A DNA stretch of 64,000 bases, taken from NCBI RefSeq assembly GCF_030056735.1, contig NZ_JASHKN010000002.1:124001-188000 (forward strand), read 5' to 3'. A program made the translations under genes and the position numbers. The DNA is from Rhodococcus sp. IEGM 1409 (GTDB lineage: Bacteria; Actinomycetota; Actinomycetes; Mycobacteriales; Mycobacteriaceae). Below the pieces are notes generated by a model. It had not been told where the DNA came from and did no database searches. It saw only the letters and a program-made list of their open reading frames with translations. Shown here in pieces: positions 37,959-46,398 of the stretch (the stretch's first letter is position 1; every line of letters starts with the position of its first letter).

Positions 37959-39787
37959 CAGATGATCACCGCGCCGTCGAGTTCGAGAAGTTCACGCAGT
38001 TCGGTGTCGGGAAGATCTGCCAGGGCGGCCTCGACGTTCCCGGAAACAGCATCGGCTACAGCTCGTTTGGACTCGTGCATCGCTGCGATGTGATCCTCCA
38101 CGGTTCCGCCCGTCACCAAGGTGTGGACGTTGACGGTGCGCTTCTGGCCGATGCGGTGTGCCCGGTCGGTTGCCTGATCTTCGACGGCTGGGTTCCACCA
38201 CCGGTCGTAGTGCACGACGTGACTCGCGCGGGTGAGGTTGAGGCCGAAGCCGGCGGCGCGCAGGCTCAGAATCAGAACCGGCGGGGAATCCGTGTCGTTC
38301 TGGAACGCGTCGACCATCCCGTCGCGCTTGTCGGTGTTCAGGCCGCCGTGGAGGAAAGGCACGGCACCGATTCCCAATTCGGATCCCAGGTGCCGCGAGA
38401 GCATCTCGCCCATCGTCCGGTACTGCGTGAATATCAACGCGCGGTCGCCGTCGTCGACGATCTCGGCGATCATTTCCGTTGCGCGGTCGAGCTTTCCGGA
38501 TCTTCCGTAGAGGTCGTCCGTATCGCCGGTGACCTGCGCGGGGTGATTGCATACCTGCTTGAGGGTGGTCAGCAGCGCAAGAATGTTGCCGCGCCGGGCA
38601 ATTCCCGTACCCAATCCGGTGTCGAAAGCATCGGCAACTGCCGACCGATAGATGCGCGCCTGTTCCGACGTCAGAGTGCACGAGACGGTGGCGAACTGCT
38701 TGGGCGGAAGATCCTTGGCCACCGTGTCTTTGGTTCTGCGCAGAATGAAAGGATCGATGACCGCGGCAAGCCTGGTCGCCGCAGTGGCGGATCGACCGGA
38801 TTCGATCGGTACGGCAAAGCGTTGACGAAAACGTGCGCGAGTTCCGAGGACGTAGGGATTGGCAACGCGAAAGAGTGACCACAACTCCTCGAGGCGGTTC
38901 TCCACCGGCGTGCCGGTCATCGCCACCTTGACGTCGGCCGACAACTGCATTGCCGCTTTCGCAGCGAGGGAAGCGGGGTTCTTGATCTGCTGCGCCTCGT
39001 CGAAGATCACCGAACTCCAGTGGATCGGGGTCAATTGGGCCGCGTCGGAACGCAAGACGCTGTAGCTGGTCAGAACCGTGGTGCCGGCGGGGATACGAGT
39101 AGGAAGTGCGCGAGCAGTCCCGTGATGAACATGCAGTGGCAGATGCGGAGCGAAGCGCTCGATCTCGCGGCGCCAGTTTCCGATCACCGAGGTGGGACAC
39201 ACAACCAGATGTGGACCGTCGTCGGCGCGGATCGCGATCATCGAAATCGCTTGCAGTGTCTTACCCAAACCCATCTCGTCGGCCAAGATCCCACCGCCCG
39301 AACCCGACAGCGCAGTCAGCCAGGCAACTCCCTGCACTTGATACGGGCGCAGAGTCGCCTGAATCTTCGCTCGGCGAAGGCTGTCCACGGCTGTACGCGC
39401 AGCCGTGAACAACCGCACTGTGGACCGGGCGCTTCGGATCTTCGTGTCGTCGCGGTCGATCGCTGCATGCGCTGCGGTCGGGATGTCATGTGCGCCGGTC
39501 TCGATGACGCGCTTCCACGCGAGCAACGACGGTCCGAGGTCGCCGCGACCTGCATCGAGGTTGTGGAACGCATCGATCGCGGTGGTGAGGTCGAGCAGTT
39601 GTGCTTCGACGTCGGTTGCTGTGATCGACTCGTCGACCGGGATCGCAAGCCTGCACACGCCTGGCGACCCGGCCGGCATCCCCAGTGCCGACAGTCGCGC
39701 TGCCGGGTCTGCGTCACCCCAGAACGCGAAGGACATGTGCTCGGGAATGTACGTAGCCTGCAGGCGCGTCGAGCATGGCTGATTCAC
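37958..39787 (-). CDS. SNF2/RapA-type ATPase
   Basis: The 609-residue protein is an SF2 helicase-like ATPase: LRPYQVQGVAWL, Walker A DEMGLGKT, VIFDEAQQIKNP (motif II), GTPVENRLEELWSLF (motif III) and a helicase C domain with FTQYRTMGEMLSRHL, RAAGFGLNLTRASHVVHYDR and DRAHRIGQ (motifs V-VI). It probably remodels protein-DNA or polymerase complexes; unwinding is not implied. It is shorter than the 1000-residue HelZ type and keeps only a small N-terminal extension. The start is a GTG. Operon with the SWIM gene. Confidence 0.9.
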   Translation of the reverse strand: MNQPCSTRLQATYIPEHMSFAFWGDADPAARLSALGMPAGSPGVCRLAIPVDESITATDVEAQLLDLTTAIDAFHNLDAGRGDLGPSLLAWKRVIETGAHDIPTAAHAAIDRDDTKIRSARSTVRLFTAARTAVDSLRRAKIQATLRPYQVQGVAWLTALSGSGGGILADEMGLGKTLQAISMIAIRADDGPHLVVCPTSVIGNWRREIERFAPHLPLHVHHGTARALPTRIPAGTTVLTSYSVLRSDAAQLTPIHWSSVIFDEAQQIKNPASLAAKAAMQLSADVKVAMTGTPVENRLEELWSLFRVANPYVLGTRARFRQRFAVPIESGRSATAATRLAAVIDPFILRRTKDTVAKDLPPKQFATVSCTLTSEQARIYRSAVADAFDTGLGTGIARRGNILALLTTLKQVCNHPAQVTGDTDDLYGRSGKLDRATEMIAEIVDDGDRALIFTQYRTMGEMLSRHLGSELGIGAVPFLHGGLNTDKRDGMVDAFQNDTDSPPVLILSLRAAGFGLNLTRASHVVHYDRWWNPAVEDQATDRAHRIGQKRTVNVHTLVTGGTVEDHIAAMHESKRAVADAVSGNVEAALADLPDTELRELLELDGAVII

Positions 39788-39829
39788 GTTCGCCGATGCT
39801 AGCCGCGCCGGCTCGCGTTGGCCAATGAA

Positions 39830-39873
39830 AATGTCGGGAAAACCCGCAGATCAGCTGTGGTTTTCCCGACATT
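39830..39873 (-). terminator. Terminator downstream of metX
   Basis: A perfect 15-bp inverted repeat (AATGTCGGGAAAACC at 39830-39844, complement at 39859-39873, loop 14 nt) follows the metX stop codon on the minus strand by 32 bp. The arm itself contains TTTT. Confidence 0.8.
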
Positions 39874-39905
39874 GACGAATCCTGAAAATGTGGCTCTGTG
39901 CCGGA

Positions 39906-41042
39906 TCAGCGAGCCGTGCGTGCGAACTCCATCGTTCGGCGAAGGAGTCCGGCGACAGCGTCCGCCTCCGTCAGGAAGCCGTCGTGGCCGTCCTTGGACT
40001 TGAGAATCTCGAGGCCGCTGCACGTGGAAATTCCGTCGGCGATCTCCTCCTGCAAACGAAGGGGATACAGCCGATCCGAATCCACGCCGCCTACTACGAC
40101 CGGTGCCGTGATCGATGCCAACGCCGCTGCAACGCCGCCGCGTCCACGGCCGATGTCGTGCCGATTCATAGCCTCGGTCAGGAGGACGTACGTGCTCGGG
40201 TCGAAGCGGTCGACGAGCTTGTCCGCCTGATGTTCCAGGTAACTCTGCACAGCGTATCGTCCACCGTTCCAAGGGTTTTCGTCGTTCTGAGCGGAGTTCT
40301 CGAAGCGTGCGTCCAGTTCGGACTCGGTGCGGTACGTCAGGTGCGCGATGCGACGAGCGATGCCGAGTCCGGCGCGCGGTGCCCGACCCGATCCGTGGTA
40401 GTTACCGCCTTGCCAGTCGGGATCGGAGACGATGGCCGCGATCTGCGTCGTCTGGGTGCCGATCTGATCTGCGGTGGCCCGTGAACCGGTTGCGAGAACC
40501 AACGCGGACCGAATGCTGTCCGGGTAGGTAACTGCCCATTCGAGGGTGCGCATGCCGCCCATGGACCCGCCGACCACCGACGCCAACTGGTCGATCCCGA
40601 GGAGATCGAGGAGCTTCTTCTCCGCCGCGATCTGATCCCGGATGGAAATTTCCGGGAAGCGGCTGCCCCAGGGCTTGCCGTCGTCGGCCAGTGAACTGGG
40701 ACCGGTCGTGCCGCGACAACCACCGAGGACATTGGTTGCGAGGACACACCATTCGCCGGTGTCGATCGGTTCGCCGGGGCCGACCATCCCGTTCCACCAG
40801 CCGGGGGATGGCTGATTCGCGGAGATCGGTCCGGTGACGTGCGAGTCTCCGGTCAGTGCGTGCTCGACGAGTACGACGTTGTCGCGGTTCGGGGACAGCT
40901 CACCCCACCGCTGAACGGCGAGCGAAACGGATGGGAGTACCGCGCCGCTTTCGAGTTCCAGGGCGCCGATGTCGACGAACCCCACCTGACCGTCGGCCGG
41001 GGGCAGGAGGTCGATCCTGGGCTGCAATTCGTTCACGGTCAC
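39906..41042 (-). CDS. metX: Homoserine O-acetyltransferase MetX
   Basis: The 378-residue protein is an alpha/beta-hydrolase-fold acyltransferase: [11 protein letters not shown], the nucleophile elbow GGSMGGMRT (Ser160), Asp in [11 protein letters not shown] and His in KDGHDGFL. It uses acetyl-CoA to make O-acetylhomoserine, the substrate of MetY encoded just upstream. The two genes overlap by 4 nt, so they are one transcript under the SAM-IV leader. Confidence 0.95.
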
Positions 41043-42364
41043 GAGTTTGCCACCGCAGCCAGGCCGACGGTGAGATCGGCGAGGATGTCGTCGATTCCTT
41101 CGATACCGACAGCGAGGCGGACGAGTCCGGGCGTGACACCGGAGGCGAGCTGCTCTTCGGGTGTGAGCTGCGAGTGCGTCGTCGACGCGGGGTGGATGAC
41201 GAGTGAGCGAACGTCACCGATGTTGGCGACGTGGCTGTGCAGCGTCAGGGCGTTGACGAATTTCTTGCCCGCATCGATACCGCCGGGCAGCTCGAAGGTG
41301 ACGATGGCGCCGGTTCCCTTGGGCGTCAGCTGCTTTCCACGTTCGAACCATGGTGAGGAGGGGAGGCCCGCGTAGGAGACAGAGGCCACCTCGCCGTGGC
41401 CGTCGAGGAATTCGGCGACCTTCTGTGCATTGGATACGTGGCGCTCGATGCGCAGGCTCAAGGTTTCGATGCCCTGCGCGATGAGGAACGCGTTGAACGG
41501 CGCCACGGCGGAGCCGAGATCGCGCAGAAGTTGGACGCGCGCCTTGAGTGCAAACGCCGGCGCGCCCAGGTCTGCGAAGGTGACGCCGTGGTAGCTGGGA
41601 TCAGGCGTCGTGAAGTTCGTGTGACGACCCTGCGTCCAGTCGAAGGTGCCACCGTCGACGATGACGCCGGCGATCGCGGTGCCATGTCCGCCAAGGTATT
41701 TCGTGGCGGAGTGAACGACGATGTCGGCGCCGTGTTCGAGCGGGCGGAGCAGGTACGGCGTCGCCACGGTGTTGTCCACGATCAACGGAAGACCGTTTTC
41801 GTGGGCCAGCGACGAGATGCCGGGTAGGTCGAGGATGTGGTTCTTCGGATTGGCGATCGTTTCGCCGTAGAACGCCTTCGTGTTCGGGCGAATGGCTTCG
41901 CGCCACTGGTCGAGATCGTCAGGATCCTCGACGAATGTGACTTCGATGCCCAGTTTACGAAGGGTGTAATGCAAGAGGTTGTACGTGCCGCCGTACAGGT
42001 ACGGGCTCGAGACGATGTGGTCGCCGGCCTCGGCAATGTTGAGGATCGCGATGGTCTCGGCGGCCTGACCCGAGGAGAGCAGAAGTGCGGCGACTCCGCC
42101 TTCGAGGGCAGCGATCCGCTGCTCGACGGTGTCCTGCGTCGGATTCATGATTCGTGTGTAGATGTTGCCGGGCTCGGCGAGGCCGAACAGGGCGGCAGCG
42201 TGATCGGTGCTGTCGAAGACGTAGCTGGTGGTCTGGTAGATCGGCAGAGCGCGCGCATTGGTGGCGGTGTCCGCTGTTTGCCCGGCGTGCACCTGCTTGG
42301 TCTCGAACGACCAGTTCGCGGTCGGATCCGAAGCTGTTGCGGCGTCGGTTGTGTTGTCGGTCAT
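41039..42364 (-). CDS. metY: O-acetylhomoserine sulfhydrylase MetY
   Basis: The 441-residue protein is a PLP enzyme of the Cys/Met-metabolism family; Lys222 in [11 protein letters not shown] is the PLP lysine, and YTRIMNPT near residue 70 and SSGQAAET near 98 bind the cofactor. It makes homocysteine from O-acetylhomoserine and sulfide. The ATG at 42364 has GGAG 10 nt upstream. The 5' leader of about 280 nt holds a SAM-IV riboswitch and a short Cys-codon ORF. Confidence 0.95.
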
Positions 42365-42405
42365 GATTTGTTCACTCCAGTGGTCTGACGGATAGATGTC
42401 GGACG

Positions 42406-42435
42406 GGGGCGAAGGATCGCCGCCCCGTGCTGGGG
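42406..42435 (-). promoter_or_regulatory. Two mutually exclusive hairpins after the leader ORF
   Basis: On the minus-strand RNA, CCCC (42435-42432), 1 nt after the leader stop codon, can pair with GGGG (42426-42423). The same GGGG, as part of GGGGCG (42426-42421), can instead pair with CGCCCC (42411-42406). The structures exclude each other, as in attenuators. No U-run follows, so a rho-independent terminator is not evident and the control, if real, may be translational or Rho-dependent. Confidence 0.45.
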
Positions 42436-42436
42436 T

Positions 42437-42457
42437 CTATCTACAAGTGCGACACAT
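42437..42457 (-). CDS. Six-residue Cys-containing leader peptide ORF (MCRTCR)
   Basis: ATG TGT CGC ACT TGT AGA TAG on the minus strand encodes M-C-R-T-C-R. A full GGAGG lies at 42467-42471, 9 nt before the ATG. It sits between the SAM-IV riboswitch and metY, 72 nt before the metY start. Two of six codons are Cys, and alternative hairpins follow at once. This is the layout of a cysteine-responsive leader peptide; translation is inferred. Confidence 0.55.
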   Translation of the reverse strand: MCRTCR

Positions 42458-42566
42458 ACTGAAATACCTCCGTGGGGCTCGGCCCGGTCTGGGGTCCGTC
42501 CCTGTCGGACCCGCGCTTGTCACCCGAATTGCGGTGGAACTGCGCGAGCAGATCCACGTCGGGAAA

Positions 42567-42648
42567 CCTGGTCATCACCCGGGGCACCCCACCGCGGTTG
42601 GAGGGTTGCCGTCCAGCGAGCCGGGGCTTGACGCTGGCACTCATGACC
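42567..42648 (-). promoter_or_regulatory. SAM-IV riboswitch upstream of metY-metX
   Basis: Read on the minus strand, the element contains GGTCATGAGTGCCAGC, GGCAACCCTCCAACCGCGGT, GGGGTGCCCCGGG and closes with TGATGACC, which pairs with the first GGTCA. This is the SAM-IV consensus of Actinomycetales. It lies about 200 nt upstream of metY. A stem GGGTCCG/CGGACCC at 42492-42512 downstream could be part of the expression platform. High S-adenosylmethionine should lower metYX expression. Confidence 0.92.
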
Positions 42649-42863
42649 AAGTCGGATTCTACCGGGAAGTGAGCGCAGTCCTGACACGGGGCGAAATGTG
42701 AGCCGCAACCGCACGCGAGGCAGAGCGACGCAGCCCACTAGCAGGCAAAAGTTACTCGCGAGTAGAGACCGATGGGTGGACCTGCCGGTTGCGGCCTCAC
42801 GGGTTAGCAGTACGCTTGTCTTGTTTGGGACTCATCTCCCGAGATCAGTCCACACCGTCTAGG

Positions 42864-42872
42864 TTTGATAAT
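42864..42872 (+). promoter_or_regulatory. Possible -10 element for icd
   Basis: TTTGATAAT, with an extended-TG -10 (GATAAT at 42867-42872), is the best promoter-like hexamer in the GC-rich gap before icd. It lies 82 bp before the start codon. No clear -35 partner was found, so the call is weak. Confidence 0.3.
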
Positions 42873-42953
42873 CGAACCGTTCGCGGACCCACTCACAAAG
42901 TGTGACCGCAACCGTGTAACCAGGGAAACTTCCTAGGAGGACGCGAAGCACCC

Positions 42954-44177
42954 ATGTCCAAAATCAAGGTTGAGGGCACCGTCGTCGAACTCGACGGCGA
43001 TGAGATGACGCGCATTATCTGGCAGTTCATCAAAGACAAGTTGATCCATCCGTATCTCGATGTGAACCTCGAGTACTACGACCTCGGTATCGAGTACCGC
43101 GACGAGACCGACGACCAGGTCACCATCGACGCAGCGCACGCGATCCAGAAGCACGGCGTCGGCGTCAAATGCGCCACGATCACGCCGGACGAGGCACGTG
43201 TCGAGGAATTCGGTCTCAAGAAGATGTGGCGTTCCCCGAACGGAACGATCCGCAACATTCTCGGCGGCACGATCTTCCGCGCACCGATCATCATCTCCAA
43301 CGTTCCGCGACTCGTTCCGGGCTGGACCAAGCCGATCATCATCGGCCGTCACGCATTCGGCGACCAGTACCGCGCCACAGACTTCAAGGTCCCCGGCCCC
43401 GGCAAGGTGATGATCACCTACACGCCTGAGGACGGCAGCGCACCGATCGAGCACGAACTGGTCAACTTCCCCGAAGAGGGCGGCGTCGTCCAGGGGCAAT
43501 ACAACTTCACCACGTCCATCCGTGACTTCGCTCGCGCGTCGCTCACCTACGGACTGCAGCAGAACTACCCGGTGTACTTGTCCACCAAGAACACCATTCT
43601 CAAGGCGTACGACGGTGCCTTCAAGGACATCTTCCAGCACGTCTACGAGACCGAGTTCAAGGCTGAGTTCGATGCCGCGGGTCTGACCTACGAGCACCGT
43701 CTCATCGACGACATGGTCGCTTCCGCACTCAAGTGGGAGGGCGGCTACGTCTGGGCATGCAAGAACTACGACGGCGACGTCCAGTCCGACACCGTGGCCC
43801 AGGGCTTCGGCTCGCTCGGCCTCATGACGTCGGTTCTGCTCACCCCGGACGGACGGACCTGTGAGGCAGAGGCTGCTCACGGCACCGTGACGCGTCACTA
43901 CCGTCAGCATCAGCAGGGCAAGCCCACCTCGACCAACCCGATCGCGTCCATCTTCGCGTGGACCCGTGGGCTCGAGCACCGTGGCAAGCTCGACAGCACT
44001 CCCGAGGTCATCGGCTTCGCGCAGGCGCTCGAAGACGTTGTCATCAAGACCGTCGAAAGCGGCCAGATGACCAAGGACCTCTCGATGCTGGTCGGCGGCG
44101 ATCAGGGCTACCTGACCACCGAGGAGTTCCTCGGCGCGCTCGACGTGAACCTGCAGAAGGCCATGGCCGCGAAGTAG
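42954..44177 (+). CDS. icd: NADP-dependent isocitrate dehydrogenase
   Basis: The 407-residue protein is a dimeric, eukaryote-like [23 protein letters not shown] at the start, [20 protein letters not shown] as substrate loop, [20 protein letters not shown] with the metal-binding Asp, and [18 protein letters not shown] for NADP. It oxidises isocitrate to 2-oxoglutarate and supplies NADPH. A strong TAGGAGG lies 13 nt before ATG. Its position beside metY-metX is conserved in mycobacteria (Rv3339c-Rv3341). Confidence 0.97.
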
Positions 44178-44197
44178 ATTCACCGCTTCACCTTTCG

Positions 44198-44230
44198 AAT
44201 GGGACGTCCGGGAAACCGGGCGTCCCATTT
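44198..44230 (+). terminator. Rho-independent terminator of icd
   Basis: AATGGGACG-t-CCGG and CCGG-g-CGTCCCATT form a stem of 13 pairs with one mismatch around a GAAA tetraloop. The right arm ends in TTT. It starts 20 bp after the icd stop. Confidence 0.9.
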
Positions 44231-44241
44231 GTGTTCGCGGT

Positions 44242-44260
44242 CTCACGTGAGTGAACTCAC
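44242..44260. promoter_or_regulatory. Overlapping palindromes before the MFS gene
   Basis: CTCACGTGAG (44242-44251) is a perfect 10-bp palindrome, and GTGAG-TGAA-CTCAC (44247-44260) is an overlapping inverted repeat. Further CTCAC/GTGAG-like half sites follow at about 44265-44295. They lie in the 77-bp gap before the transporter gene and could bind a repressor. Confidence 0.45.
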
Positions 44261-44307
44261 CCGCTCTCACTTGGAAGTTCAACCAGATGTGAGATCACAA
44301 TTGATCA

Positions 44308-45516
44308 GTGACTTCGTCTACCCTCTCCCGTTTTGACGCCTCGACACCCGGGGTTCGTTCCGCCAGAGGTCCGGCGATGCTCGCTCTCGCCCTCGGCGGT
44401 TTCGGTATCGGCACCACCGAGTTCGTCGCCATGGGATTGCTCCCGGAAATGGCATCCGGGCTCGGTGTCTCGGAACCCATCGCAGGCCACGTGATCTCCG
44501 CCTACGCGCTCGGCGTTGTCGTCGGTGCTCCGCTGATTGCTGCTCTCACCGCACGGGTACCGCGCCGCACGCTGTTGATCGCACTCATGGTCGCCTTCAC
44601 CGTCGGCAATGCCGCTTCGGTTTTCGCGCCCTCGTACACGACGCTGATGATGGCTCGCTTCGTCGCCGGATTGCCGCACGGCGCGTACTTCGGAGTCGCC
44701 GCGCTGGTCGCAGCTCACCTGGCCGAACCGGGCAAACGTGCGAAGGCCGTGGCGATGGTGATGATGGGTCTTTCCGTGGCCAACGTGATCGGGGTACCGG
44801 TCGCCGCCTGGATCGGTCAGGCACTCGGCTGGCGCAGCGCCTTCGCTTTGGTCGCCGTGATCGGCGTGGCAACCGTTGCTTCGCTCTTCGTCTGGATTCC
44901 GCGGTTGGACGGCATGCCGGTGACAAATCCGATCACCGAACTCGGAGCGCTGGGCCGCGTCCAGGTGTGGATGACGCTGATCGTGGGCATGGTCGGGTTC
45001 GGCGGCATGTTTGCCGTCTACACCTACATCAGTACGACGCTCACCGACGTGTCCGGGCTCGGCGCTTCGTTCATTCCCCTGGCACTCATGCTCTACGGGC
45101 TGGGCATGGTTGCCGGCAACTTCGTCGGCGGCTACCTCGCGGATCGCGCACTGATGAAGGGCTTGTTCCTGTCCATGGGATCCCTCGTGGTGATCCTCGC
45201 TGTCTTCGTGGTGGCCGTGCGCAATCCGTACACGGCACTGATCTTCGTCTTCCTCATCGGGCTCGCGGGGTCCTCGATGGTTCCGGGTCTGCAGACACGG
45301 TTGATGGACGTCGCCGAGGACGCTCAGACCCTGGCTGCTTCTCTCAATCACGCCGCGCTGAACATCGCCAATGCCTTCGGAGCGTGGATCGGCGGCGTCG
45401 TGATCGCGGCCGGTTACGGGTACACGGCGCCGGCGGCAGTGGGGTCTTTGCTGGCGGTCGCGGGTCTTGTCGTGCTGGCGATTGCAGTGATTCTGCAGCG
45501 TGGGGCCGTGCGCTGA
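44308..45516 (+). CDS. MFS transporter, DHA1 family (AraJ-like)
   Basis: The 402-residue protein has twelve TM segments and the DHA1/AraJ pattern: ALGGFGIGTTEFVAMGLLP in TM1, ARVPRRTLLIALM in loop 2-3 and GLPHGAYFGVAALVAA in TM4-5. These proteins export sugars, drugs or arabinose-like compounds; the substrate is unknown. The start is the GTG at 44308; no Shine-Dalgarno sequence stands before it. Confidence 0.87.
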   Translation: MTSSTLSRFDASTPGVRSARGPAMLALALGGFGIGTTEFVAMGLLPEMASGLGVSEPIAGHVISAYALGVVVGAPLIAALTARVPRRTLLIALMVAFTVGNAASVFAPSYTTLMMARFVAGLPHGAYFGVAALVAAHLAEPGKRAKAVAMVMMGLSVANVIGVPVAAWIGQALGWRSAFALVAVIGVATVASLFVWIPRLDGMPVTNPITELGALGRVQVWMTLIVGMVGFGGMFAVYTYISTTLTDVSGLGASFIPLALMLYGLGMVAGNFVGGYLADRALMKGLFLSMGSLVVILAVFVVAVRNPYTALIFVFLIGLAGSSMVPGLQTRLMDVAEDAQTLAASLNHAALNIANAFGAWIGGVVIAAGYGYTAPAAVGSLLAVAGLVVLAIAVILQRGAVR

Positions 45517-45561
45517 GGTGGGCGCCCATCCGCGTCGGTGGAATCGGCTACGGTGCTTGCC

Positions 45562-46398
45562 GTGCCACAAACTGCTGACTCCCACATTCTTGCTCCCCGC
45601 ACCATCACGTCCGTGAACGTTAACGGCGTTCGAGCAGCTGCCCGCAAGGGCATGCTCGACTGGCTGGAGAAGACCTCGGCGGATTTCATCTGCCTTCAGG
45701 AAACGCGTGCGTCGGACGATCAGCTTCGTGAGACCCTCGAACCAGCACTCGGCAACGGATGGTTCCTGGTCTCCGCCGAGCCGTCCGCGAAGGGACGCAA
45801 CGGAGTCGCGGTGCTCTCACGCATCGAGCCTGACGCGGTGCGGATCGGTCACGGGGACGACGAATTTCTCGACGCCGGTCGATACATCGAAGCCGACTTC
45901 GCCGATCTGACCGTCGCGAGCCTGTACCTGCCCTCCGGTGAGGCGCTCACGCCGAAGCAGGAGGAGAAGGAACGCTTCATGGCGTCCTTCGCGGTTCACC
46001 TCGCCTCCACCGCCGCAGCGGCCGAGGCTGCCGATCGCCACGTGGTGGTCAGCGGCGATTGGAACATCGCGCACACCGAACTCGACCTCAAGAACTGGAA
46101 GACCAACAAAAAGTCTTCGGGATTCCTCCCCGAGGAGCGTGCATGGATGGACCTACTGTTCGCGGAGGATTCCACATGGGTCGATGTCTTCCGCACCCTT
46201 CACCCTGGTGTTGATGGCCCTTACTCGTGGTGGTCCTACCGCGGCAAGGCATTCGACAACGACTCGGGGTGGCGTATCGATTACCAGGTTGCCACCCGCG
46301 GCTACGCCGAGCGGGCCAAGGTCGCGGTTGTGGAACGCGCTGAGTCCTACGACCTCCGTTGGTCGGATCACGCACCTGTCACCGTCTCGTACCGGTAG
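45562..46398 (+). CDS. xth: Exodeoxyribonuclease III (AP endonuclease)
   Basis: The 278-residue protein has the EEP nuclease motifs: TSVNVNGVRAA, CLQETRAS (Glu), SGDWNIAHTELDLKN (Asp and Asn) and SDHAPVTVSY (Asp-His). It cleaves at abasic sites and removes 3' blocks in base excision repair. TACGGT followed by 7 nt and GTG at 45562 resembles a leaderless actinobacterial promoter-start, so this GTG is preferred to 45538 or 45553. Confidence 0.9.
   Translation: MPQTADSHILAPRTITSVNVNGVRAAARKGMLDWLEKTSADFICLQETRASDDQLRETLEPALGNGWFLVSAEPSAKGRNGVAVLSRIEPDAVRIGHGDDEFLDAGRYIEADFADLTVASLYLPSGEALTPKQEEKERFMASFAVHLASTAAAAEAADRHVVVSGDWNIAHTELDLKNWKTNKKSSGFLPEERAWMDLLFAEDSTWVDVFRTLHPGVDGPYSWWSYRGKAFDNDSGWRIDYQVATRGYAERAKVAVVERAESYDLRWSDHAPVTVSYR

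Follow-up and report, generated by a model that had tools for sequence, protein, structure and literature searches.

The metY-metX leader of Rhodococcus sp. IEGM 1409 places a SAM-IV riboswitch aptamer in series with a short, Shine-Dalgarno-led open reading frame (mini-ORF) that carries two cysteine codons. We propose, with a probability of roughly 0.6, that the two act as nested sensors of a single two-input switch, and that metY-metX would be on only when both SAM and cysteine are low. In the predicted mechanism, bound SAM would hide the ribosome site of the mini-ORF, low Cys-tRNA would park a ribosome on the UGU codons of the mini-ORF, and the parked ribosome would shield the start of a C-rich, G-poor stretch, thereby preventing a premature, likely Rho-dependent, termination before metY. 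The last of these links is the least certain. The parts are of known kinds, and it is the serial combination that is the new element: in open-access titles and the starts of abstracts we found none that describes SAM-IV followed by a cysteine uORF (Weinberg 2008, which defines SAM-IV, and Canestrari 2020, which defines polycysteine ORFs, lay outside this search), and in open-access full text SAM-IV, cysteine and uORF occurred together only in a review, with the words in separate places.

Positions refer to the window, i.e., the whole stretch of 64,000 nucleotides that was analysed. On its minus strand the elements follow each other, in the order of transcription, as a –10-like box, the SAM-IV aptamer, a hairpin labelled here P6, a GGGC/GCCC hairpin, a GGAGG, the mini-ORF, metY and metX. 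The metY gene (41039..42364, minus strand) was assigned to the bifunctional O-acetylhomoserine/O-acetylserine sulfhydrylases by NF005872 (861.1 bits, cut-off 703), and metX (39906..41042, minus strand) to the homoserine O-acetyltransferases by NF047917 of NCBIfam (592.5 bits, cut-off 475). Because the MetY model is that of a bifunctional sulfhydrylase, the enzyme may plausibly make cysteine. The step assimilates sulfur, and the family model of metY includes cysteine synthase activity. The Shine-Dalgarno sequence (SD) of metY, CTGGAG, is located at 42375..42380 (minus strand). Among the matches listed, the best one to metY from a named species is in Rhodococcus globerulus (93%), and another genome of the genus reaches 99%.

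The aptamer was detected by cmscan at 42508..42648 on the minus strand (RF00634; 104.7 bits, gathering score 38). The match is of full length (model 1-116) with an E-value of 3.7e-19, and no other Rfam match reaches an E-value of 1 or lower within 39000-46000. A covariance model of our own, R1, built from 19 aptamers including this sequence, gave 126.7 bits at 42507-42649. Judged by these matches, the metY leader carries a predicted SAM-sensing aptamer of the SAM-IV family. Within it, GCGCGG at 42511..42516 (minus strand) is the expected 3' strand of pseudoknot PK-2, by analogy with the available text of the cryo-EM description of SAM-IV (PMC6890682). The –10-like box TAGAAT (42656..42661, minus strand), the predicted promoter of the leader, starts 12 nt upstream of the aptamer. 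All 122 of the SAM-IV-metY leaders described below have a TAnnnT motif within the 25 nt that precede the aptamer, 112 of them at a distance of 12-13 nt, while the four next 25-nt intervals upstream (25-100 nt further), taken as a control, contained it in 5, 16, 3 and 5 of 122. A consensus scan of 42300-42960 did not find a full sigma-70 consensus promoter. From the position of this box, a single transcript that begins shortly upstream of the aptamer is predicted to include the aptamer, the mini-ORF and metY.

Between the aptamer and the mini-ORF are two small hairpins. P6 (GGGTCCG/CGGACCC, 42492..42512, minus strand) lies mostly beyond the Rfam model, and at least six of its seven pairs can form in 85/114 leaders compared to 50/114 with a shuffled arm, eight of the 122 leaders having been dropped from this count for a missing anchor. 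Its fourth pair varies between T-A, T-G and C-G. P6 is widespread and partly covarying, and may belong to the expression platform. The second hairpin, GGGC-CGA-GCCC, precedes the SD of the mini-ORF at 42475..42485 (minus strand). Of six clade alignments, two (win and presc) have it in their consensus fold. The same genome holds two more SAM-IV copies, L001 (C6) and L003 (C5), both lacking a Cys mini-ORF; these further copies precede a class-V aminotransferase (SufS model, under cut-off) and a luciferase-like monooxygenase.

The mini-ORF occupies 42437..42457 on the minus strand and reads ATG TGT CGC ACT TGT AGA TAG, i.e., MCRTCR and a stop, with UGU at codons 2 and 5. Its SD, GGAGG at 42467..42471 (minus strand), is 9 nt before the ATG (42457-42455) and is invariant among seven aligned sequences, those of the window and six clade members. 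MCRTCR is the form of the window's clade and is common to nine relatives. The first-pass annotation had named both the SAM-IV aptamer of this minus-strand leader and a GGAGG followed by a six-codon M-C-R-T-C-R-stop frame, and both are where it placed them. It had further proposed that a Cys-codon leader stands in tandem with SAM-IV, to be judged by conservation among relatives. A covariance model from 19 aptamers returned 190 SAM-IV hits, 189 in fetched loci and one in the window. The loci came from the metY and SAM-IV loci of relatives; of 531 related loci the first metY set keeps the best 80, three further match lists contributed loci from their best matches, and the order outside the family is represented by 30 of 74 matching genomes. 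Of the 189 matches, 143 precede metY, and dropping 21 repeated sequences gave 122 distinct leaders. Room for a mini-ORF, taken as 60 nt or more between aptamer and metY, is available in 91 of them; the other 31 are termed short leaders.

With a mini-ORF defined by an SD of at least 4 nt and at least two Cys codons within the first twelve codons, 68 of the 91 leaders with room carry one, where dinucleotide shuffles lead one to expect 1.2; since the leaders are mutually related, these counts are not independent. The start, the SD and the Cys codons are thus widely kept, and the tandem arrangement holds well beyond the window. The 68 mini-ORFs encode 50 distinct peptides, in which Cys is the commonest and Arg the second commonest residue at positions 2-8; they include MCCCRR, MMCCCCRR, MCCCLE, MCSCHE, MCCCRSQFAFR, MCCRR, VCCRMCCRS and MSCCRR. 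The opacus-type leaders carry MMCCCCRR, and Mycobacterium peregrinum (L082), a relative of M. smegmatis, has MCMCP followed by a stop. Runs of Cys codons are seen in many relatives; the copy in the window has two single, separated Cys codons, which counts against the proposed switch. The 23 remaining leaders with room comprise seven whose short two-Cys ORF lacks an SD by the count used (MMCCCCRR in L021 and MRPDMCDSC in L080 are examples), five with an SD-led ORF of one Cys codon (VRSCR, MSRCR twice, VSTLCR and MCRSPR) and 11 with neither. The cysteine codons of the mini-ORFs are UGU in 165 of 184 cases and UGC in 19, and those of 42 ORFs of the window, which are the longest non-overlapping frames, uncurated, and also served the UTR control below, are UGU in 53 of 196 and UGC in 143 (Fisher p 7e-38). 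A chance ORF in a GC-rich leader could be suspected from the copy in the window, which has just six codons and two Cys, but given the excess over shuffles and the bias to UGU we regard this explanation as scarcely credible. The excess over shuffles argues that the mini-ORF is real, and it is predicted to be translated.

Two further controls concerned the reading frame and the gene partner. The sequence AUGUG also contains a GTG, from which an overlapping frame reads Leu. This frame is absent in 19/68 leaders, and in 16 more it holds at most one Leu codon, with the Cys codons kept, so that a run of Leu codons, missing or below two in 35/68, was rejected as the conserved feature; both frames are open in the other 33/68, which counts against the Cys reading. 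For the gene partner, SAM-IV aptamers before genes other than metY were followed by a Cys mini-ORF in 1/46 leaders (one of the 46, L100, has no assigned gene), and the gene behind that single case, L113, begins like metY. A class-wide draw of 25 new loci gave 0/15 for SAM-IV loci of this non-metY kind. On the 1/46, the idea that SAM-IV is generally accompanied by a Cys mini-ORF was rejected. Taken together, the controls of codon choice, frame and gene partner show that what is conserved is the Cys codons in the SD-led frame, and that they are tied to metY and not to SAM-IV.

Among metY genes without SAM-IV, a loose rule finds a Cys-rich ORF in 7/57 rows. One of the seven is the locus of the window itself (L002), which was outside the model search and is hence counted among the 57. 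With so few, Cys control of metY is not general. The six others comprise two of a leaderless type (L007 and L165), an SD-led MRCCRR (L213) and doubtful cases. In L007 and L165, a TATTGT box lies immediately before a GTG-started ORF that lacks an SD and ends in MCICGCSGR or MCICGCPGR; by their sequence these ORFs resemble the polycysteine ORFs known from leaderless transcripts. Searching the window's own genome for other Cys mini-ORFs gave no convincing hit, the pattern occurring at 8 places compared to 24 in the reversed control. At the PAPS-reductase-family loci of this genome, two (L256 and L258) have Cys frames only on the opposite strand and two (L255 and L257) have none. Two short frames elsewhere in the genome end in CCCRL-stop (L259) and MCCCR-stop (L263), and no clear gene follows them in the scan.

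The mini-ORF has a wide distribution. In a survey of the family with one genome per genus, SAM-IV precedes metY in 21 of 30 genera; a mini-ORF with at least two Cys codons is present in 11 of these 21, and one with a single Cys codon in three more. In the class-wide draw, 3/10 SAM-IV-metY loci carry a mini-ORF (MCIRRMCCR, MRCCCQ and MRCCPLTRSH); the genome with MRCCCQ is from the window's own family. Three others from this draw, which belong to other orders of the same class, have one-Cys mini-ORFs, i.e., VSCQRMPRR (L269), MTCRMPF (L274) and VTCRMRR (L278), two of which share C-R-M.

Where the mini-ORF starts bears on how the two elements are coupled. Mini-ORFs start at a median of 44.5 nt (12-103) past the end of the aptamer model, and the metY genes behind them at a median of 137 nt. 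In the 31 short leaders, metY itself starts 15-59 nt past the aptamer, and in 30 of them 34-59 nt. By sequence comparison, then, the start of the mini-ORF matches the distance of metY in the short leaders. The mini-ORF thus stands behind the aptamer where the gene itself stands in short leaders, and the SAM and Cys inputs look nested, with SAM gating translation of the mini-ORF, rather than parallel. The alternative is two independent sensors: SAM-IV would control transcription, or metY without an intermediary, and the Cys mini-ORF would work on its own. That the modules are separable, a Cys ORF being found also at metY genes without SAM-IV (L007, L165 and L213), speaks for it; the matching distance stands against it, as do the 23/68 mini-ORFs, Nocardia-type and opacus-type ones included, that start only 12-16 nt after the end of the aptamer model, and we consider independent sensors unlikely. 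For the nested switch, a fold test was made in which the PK-2 strand is taken away from other pairing. Here the first SD became harder to open in 46/68 mini-ORF leaders and easier in 14, and the SD of the short metY leaders became harder to open in 21/30 and easier in 1. The masks were set by hand, which makes the outcome tentative; a shut-off of the mini-ORF by SAM would fit it. Counted against such SAM gating is the solved structure of SAM-IV, in which, by the available text, SAM binding leaves the base undisrupted (PMC6890682).

The 72 nt between the stop of the mini-ORF and metY hold the SD of metY and two mutually exclusive GC hairpins (42406..42435, minus strand). Hairpin 1 pairs CCCC (42435-42432) with GGGG (42426-42423), and hairpin 2 pairs GGGGCG (42426-42421), which shares that GGGG, with CGCCCC (42411-42406). 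The first-pass annotation had described these competing hairpins, together with a missing U-run, and both observations are accurate. Conservation of the hairpins, which it had put forward as a check, stood within the clade of the window, where the letters of the stems are identical in 7/7 aligned sequences, and failed beyond it, a homologous hairpin not being seen among the leaders of the other clades compared. As the stems show no variation and are confined to this clade, the competing hairpins were rejected as the conserved switch. A terminator scan of 42300-42960 found no terminator-like site, in agreement with the missing U-run, and the U-run terminator hairpin with antiterminator of a classical trp-type transcription attenuator was not found in the same interval. 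In Nocardia-type leaders (for example L078 and L055), a CGCC...GGCG hairpin with a U run within 3 nt precedes metY, possibly a weak terminator; such a hairpin with a U run was not seen in the Rhodococcus leaders compared.

Across leaders, the region after the mini-ORF folds more stably than its shuffled versions (mean z –1.03; 31/67 leaders are below –1) and has a distinct composition, with 43% C, 23% G and C exceeding G in 66/67 (one of the 68 leaders was dropped from both counts). The corresponding values are 38% C and 29% G for the start of the metY coding region, and, in a small set of control UTRs, 32% C and 25% G for leaders of the window (C exceeding G in 8/11) and 31% and 30% for others (10/17). 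Rho loads on C-rich, G-poor RNA. The composition of this stretch, a candidate Rho-loading region which in the window spans 42381..42436 (minus strand), suggests Rho as the factor. In 47/68 mini-ORFs no more than three residues separate the last Cys codon from the stop, and a ribosome parked on that codon would cover the beginning of the stretch. In the window the stretch begins with ACCCCAG right after the stop (42430..42436, minus strand).

The same ACCCCAG is a candidate anti-SD, and this brings in a translational ending of the switch, in which the SD of metY would be hidden in the folded leader until stalling of a ribosome at the Cys codons releases it. In mycobacterial polycysteine ORFs, ribosome stalling is reported to unmask the SD of the gene. 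In the consensus fold of the window's clade, ACCCCAG pairs with CTGGAGT, and a mask for the stalled ribosome lowers the energy of opening the metY SD by more than 1 kcal/mol in 24/68 leaders and raises it in 4, a count made without shuffle control. Folding with such ribosome masks, which are placed by hand, is crude and is given little weight here. Against shuffles, the effect of the mask is weak (37/57 leaders below the shuffle mean, mean z –0.32; 11 of the 68 leaders were dropped by length or SD rules), and the hiding of the metY SD in the same 57 leaders, with a mean z of –0.21, is barely or not above them, so that sequestration of this SD was rejected as a general rule. An extra pair of CCCC[A/G] after the Cys codons with the metY SD is possible in 32/44 leaders (shuffle mean 28.2, reached by 4.6% of shuffles), but when one leader per cluster of related motifs is taken the count is 8/14 against a shuffle mean of 7.7; covariation is unsupported and CCCC[A/G] as the anti-SD of metY was rejected. 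We see unmasking of the SD as a realistic possibility at somewhat less than even odds. For the ending of the switch we favour the prevention of termination, with unmasking of the metY SD a close second. In one leader of 130 nt past the aptamer (L150), TGTTGTCGCTG lies over the Cys codons (70-80) and its exact 11-nt complement CAGCGACAACA (98-108) near metY; this type of complement to the Cys codons was not seen as a rule in the other leaders.

The direction of the response could also be the reverse. If a ribosome had to complete the mini-ORF in order to reach metY, through a landing pad or termination-reinitiation, cysteine shortage would lower metY. A mini-ORF that ends on the start of metY would suit reinitiation: in L014, L016 and L098 the stop and the metY start overlap at +4, in L029 and L220 the stop falls beyond the start, and in L022 it lies 9 nt before metY. 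(In L098, the stop codon of its neighbours is a sense codon.) The ppe2 gene of Mycobacterium tuberculosis is expressed mainly in this way, from a riboswitch-controlled uORF, as the available text of that study has it (PMC11260477). Yet 62/68 mini-ORFs end at least 30 nt before metY, with a median of 68.5 nt, and the stop in the window, 72 nt before metY, does not overlap its start, so that we hold this reading to be quite improbable. For the nested switch, we infer that shortage of Cys-tRNA, as the second signal, raises metY from descriptions of cysteine attenuators, from the sulfur-assimilating role of metY, and from SAM-IV at metY, which we take to be an OFF switch. Work of Canestrari from 2020 on mycobacterial polycysteine ORFs is said to describe a rise in downstream expression on cysteine shortage.

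Each component resembles known systems, which we know here from parts of the sources. Polycysteine leaderless short ORFs of mycobacteria are read as cysteine-responsive attenuators before sulfur genes (PMC9031893, PMC13236596, PMC9094748, which cite Canestrari 2020), and are described as tying elongation speed to cysteine supply (PMC9031893). The metY mini-ORF is likewise a short Cys-codon ORF upstream of a sulfur gene; whereas in the leaderless type the ORF begins the transcript, the metY mini-ORF is SD-led and behind SAM-IV, and its predicted promoter, the –10-like box before the aptamer, is about 190 nt upstream. Actinobacterial cys leader peptides before cys operons and cbs were described without a terminator by Seliverstov 2005 (PMC1262725), and in the available text Rho was suggested for the mycobacterial ones, a prediction that the authors rate as rather weak; no conserved RNA structure was observed there upstream of methionine operons. 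Those leaders share with ours the Cys codons near the stop and the absence of a terminator hairpin, and differ in the gene that follows, which here is metY. The B12 riboswitch of ppe2, a layout studied experimentally, is a translational OFF riboswitch acting on an SD-led uORF that the gene needs, as is predicted here, where an SD-led uORF likewise lies behind the aptamer at the platform position; unlike the metY leader, the ppe2 uORF and gene overlap at AUGA, and the available text describes no amino-acid sensing (PMC11260477).

For the combination of two signals, the nearest relatives are the SAM-I/T-box(Met) tandems before metX and metY, which join SAM to an aminoacyl-tRNA signal and for which the logic NOT SAM AND uncharged tRNA was predicted, as far as the available text goes (PMC9481103). 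The predicted logic of the metY-metX switch matches this NOT-A-AND-B form, but the second sensor is a T-box for tRNA-Met in the SAM-I tandems and a Cys mini-ORF with SAM-IV here (PMC9481103). The mgtA leader with its proline-codon mgtL similarly joins an RNA that senses a ligand to a uORF that senses through its codons, although in Salmonella mgtA the inputs are Mg2+ and proline and an attenuator stem-loop is involved, according to the text available (PMC6460261).

Extended to the Actinomycetes, our reading is that SAM-IV at metY often acts through the SD of a mini-ORF, forming a NOT-SAM AND NOT-Cys gate in which one sensor licenses the second, a generalization to which we give even odds. The mini-ORF is present in most leaders with room, and metY sits directly on the platform in others, for example in a number of mycobacteria. 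The same aptamer with and without a mini-ORF thus offers an evolutionary comparison of how two sensors become one gate. If the proposal is true, a riboswitch and an amino-acid sensor that works through the ribosome would be nested and wired in series where sulfide is directed to methionine or cysteine. SAM-IV at metY would gain an expression platform that is directly testable, and cysteine attenuation would extend beyond leaderless transcripts. The parallel to the SAM-I/T-box tandems at metX and metY, as seen in the available text on these, would point to a possible convergence on the same logic.
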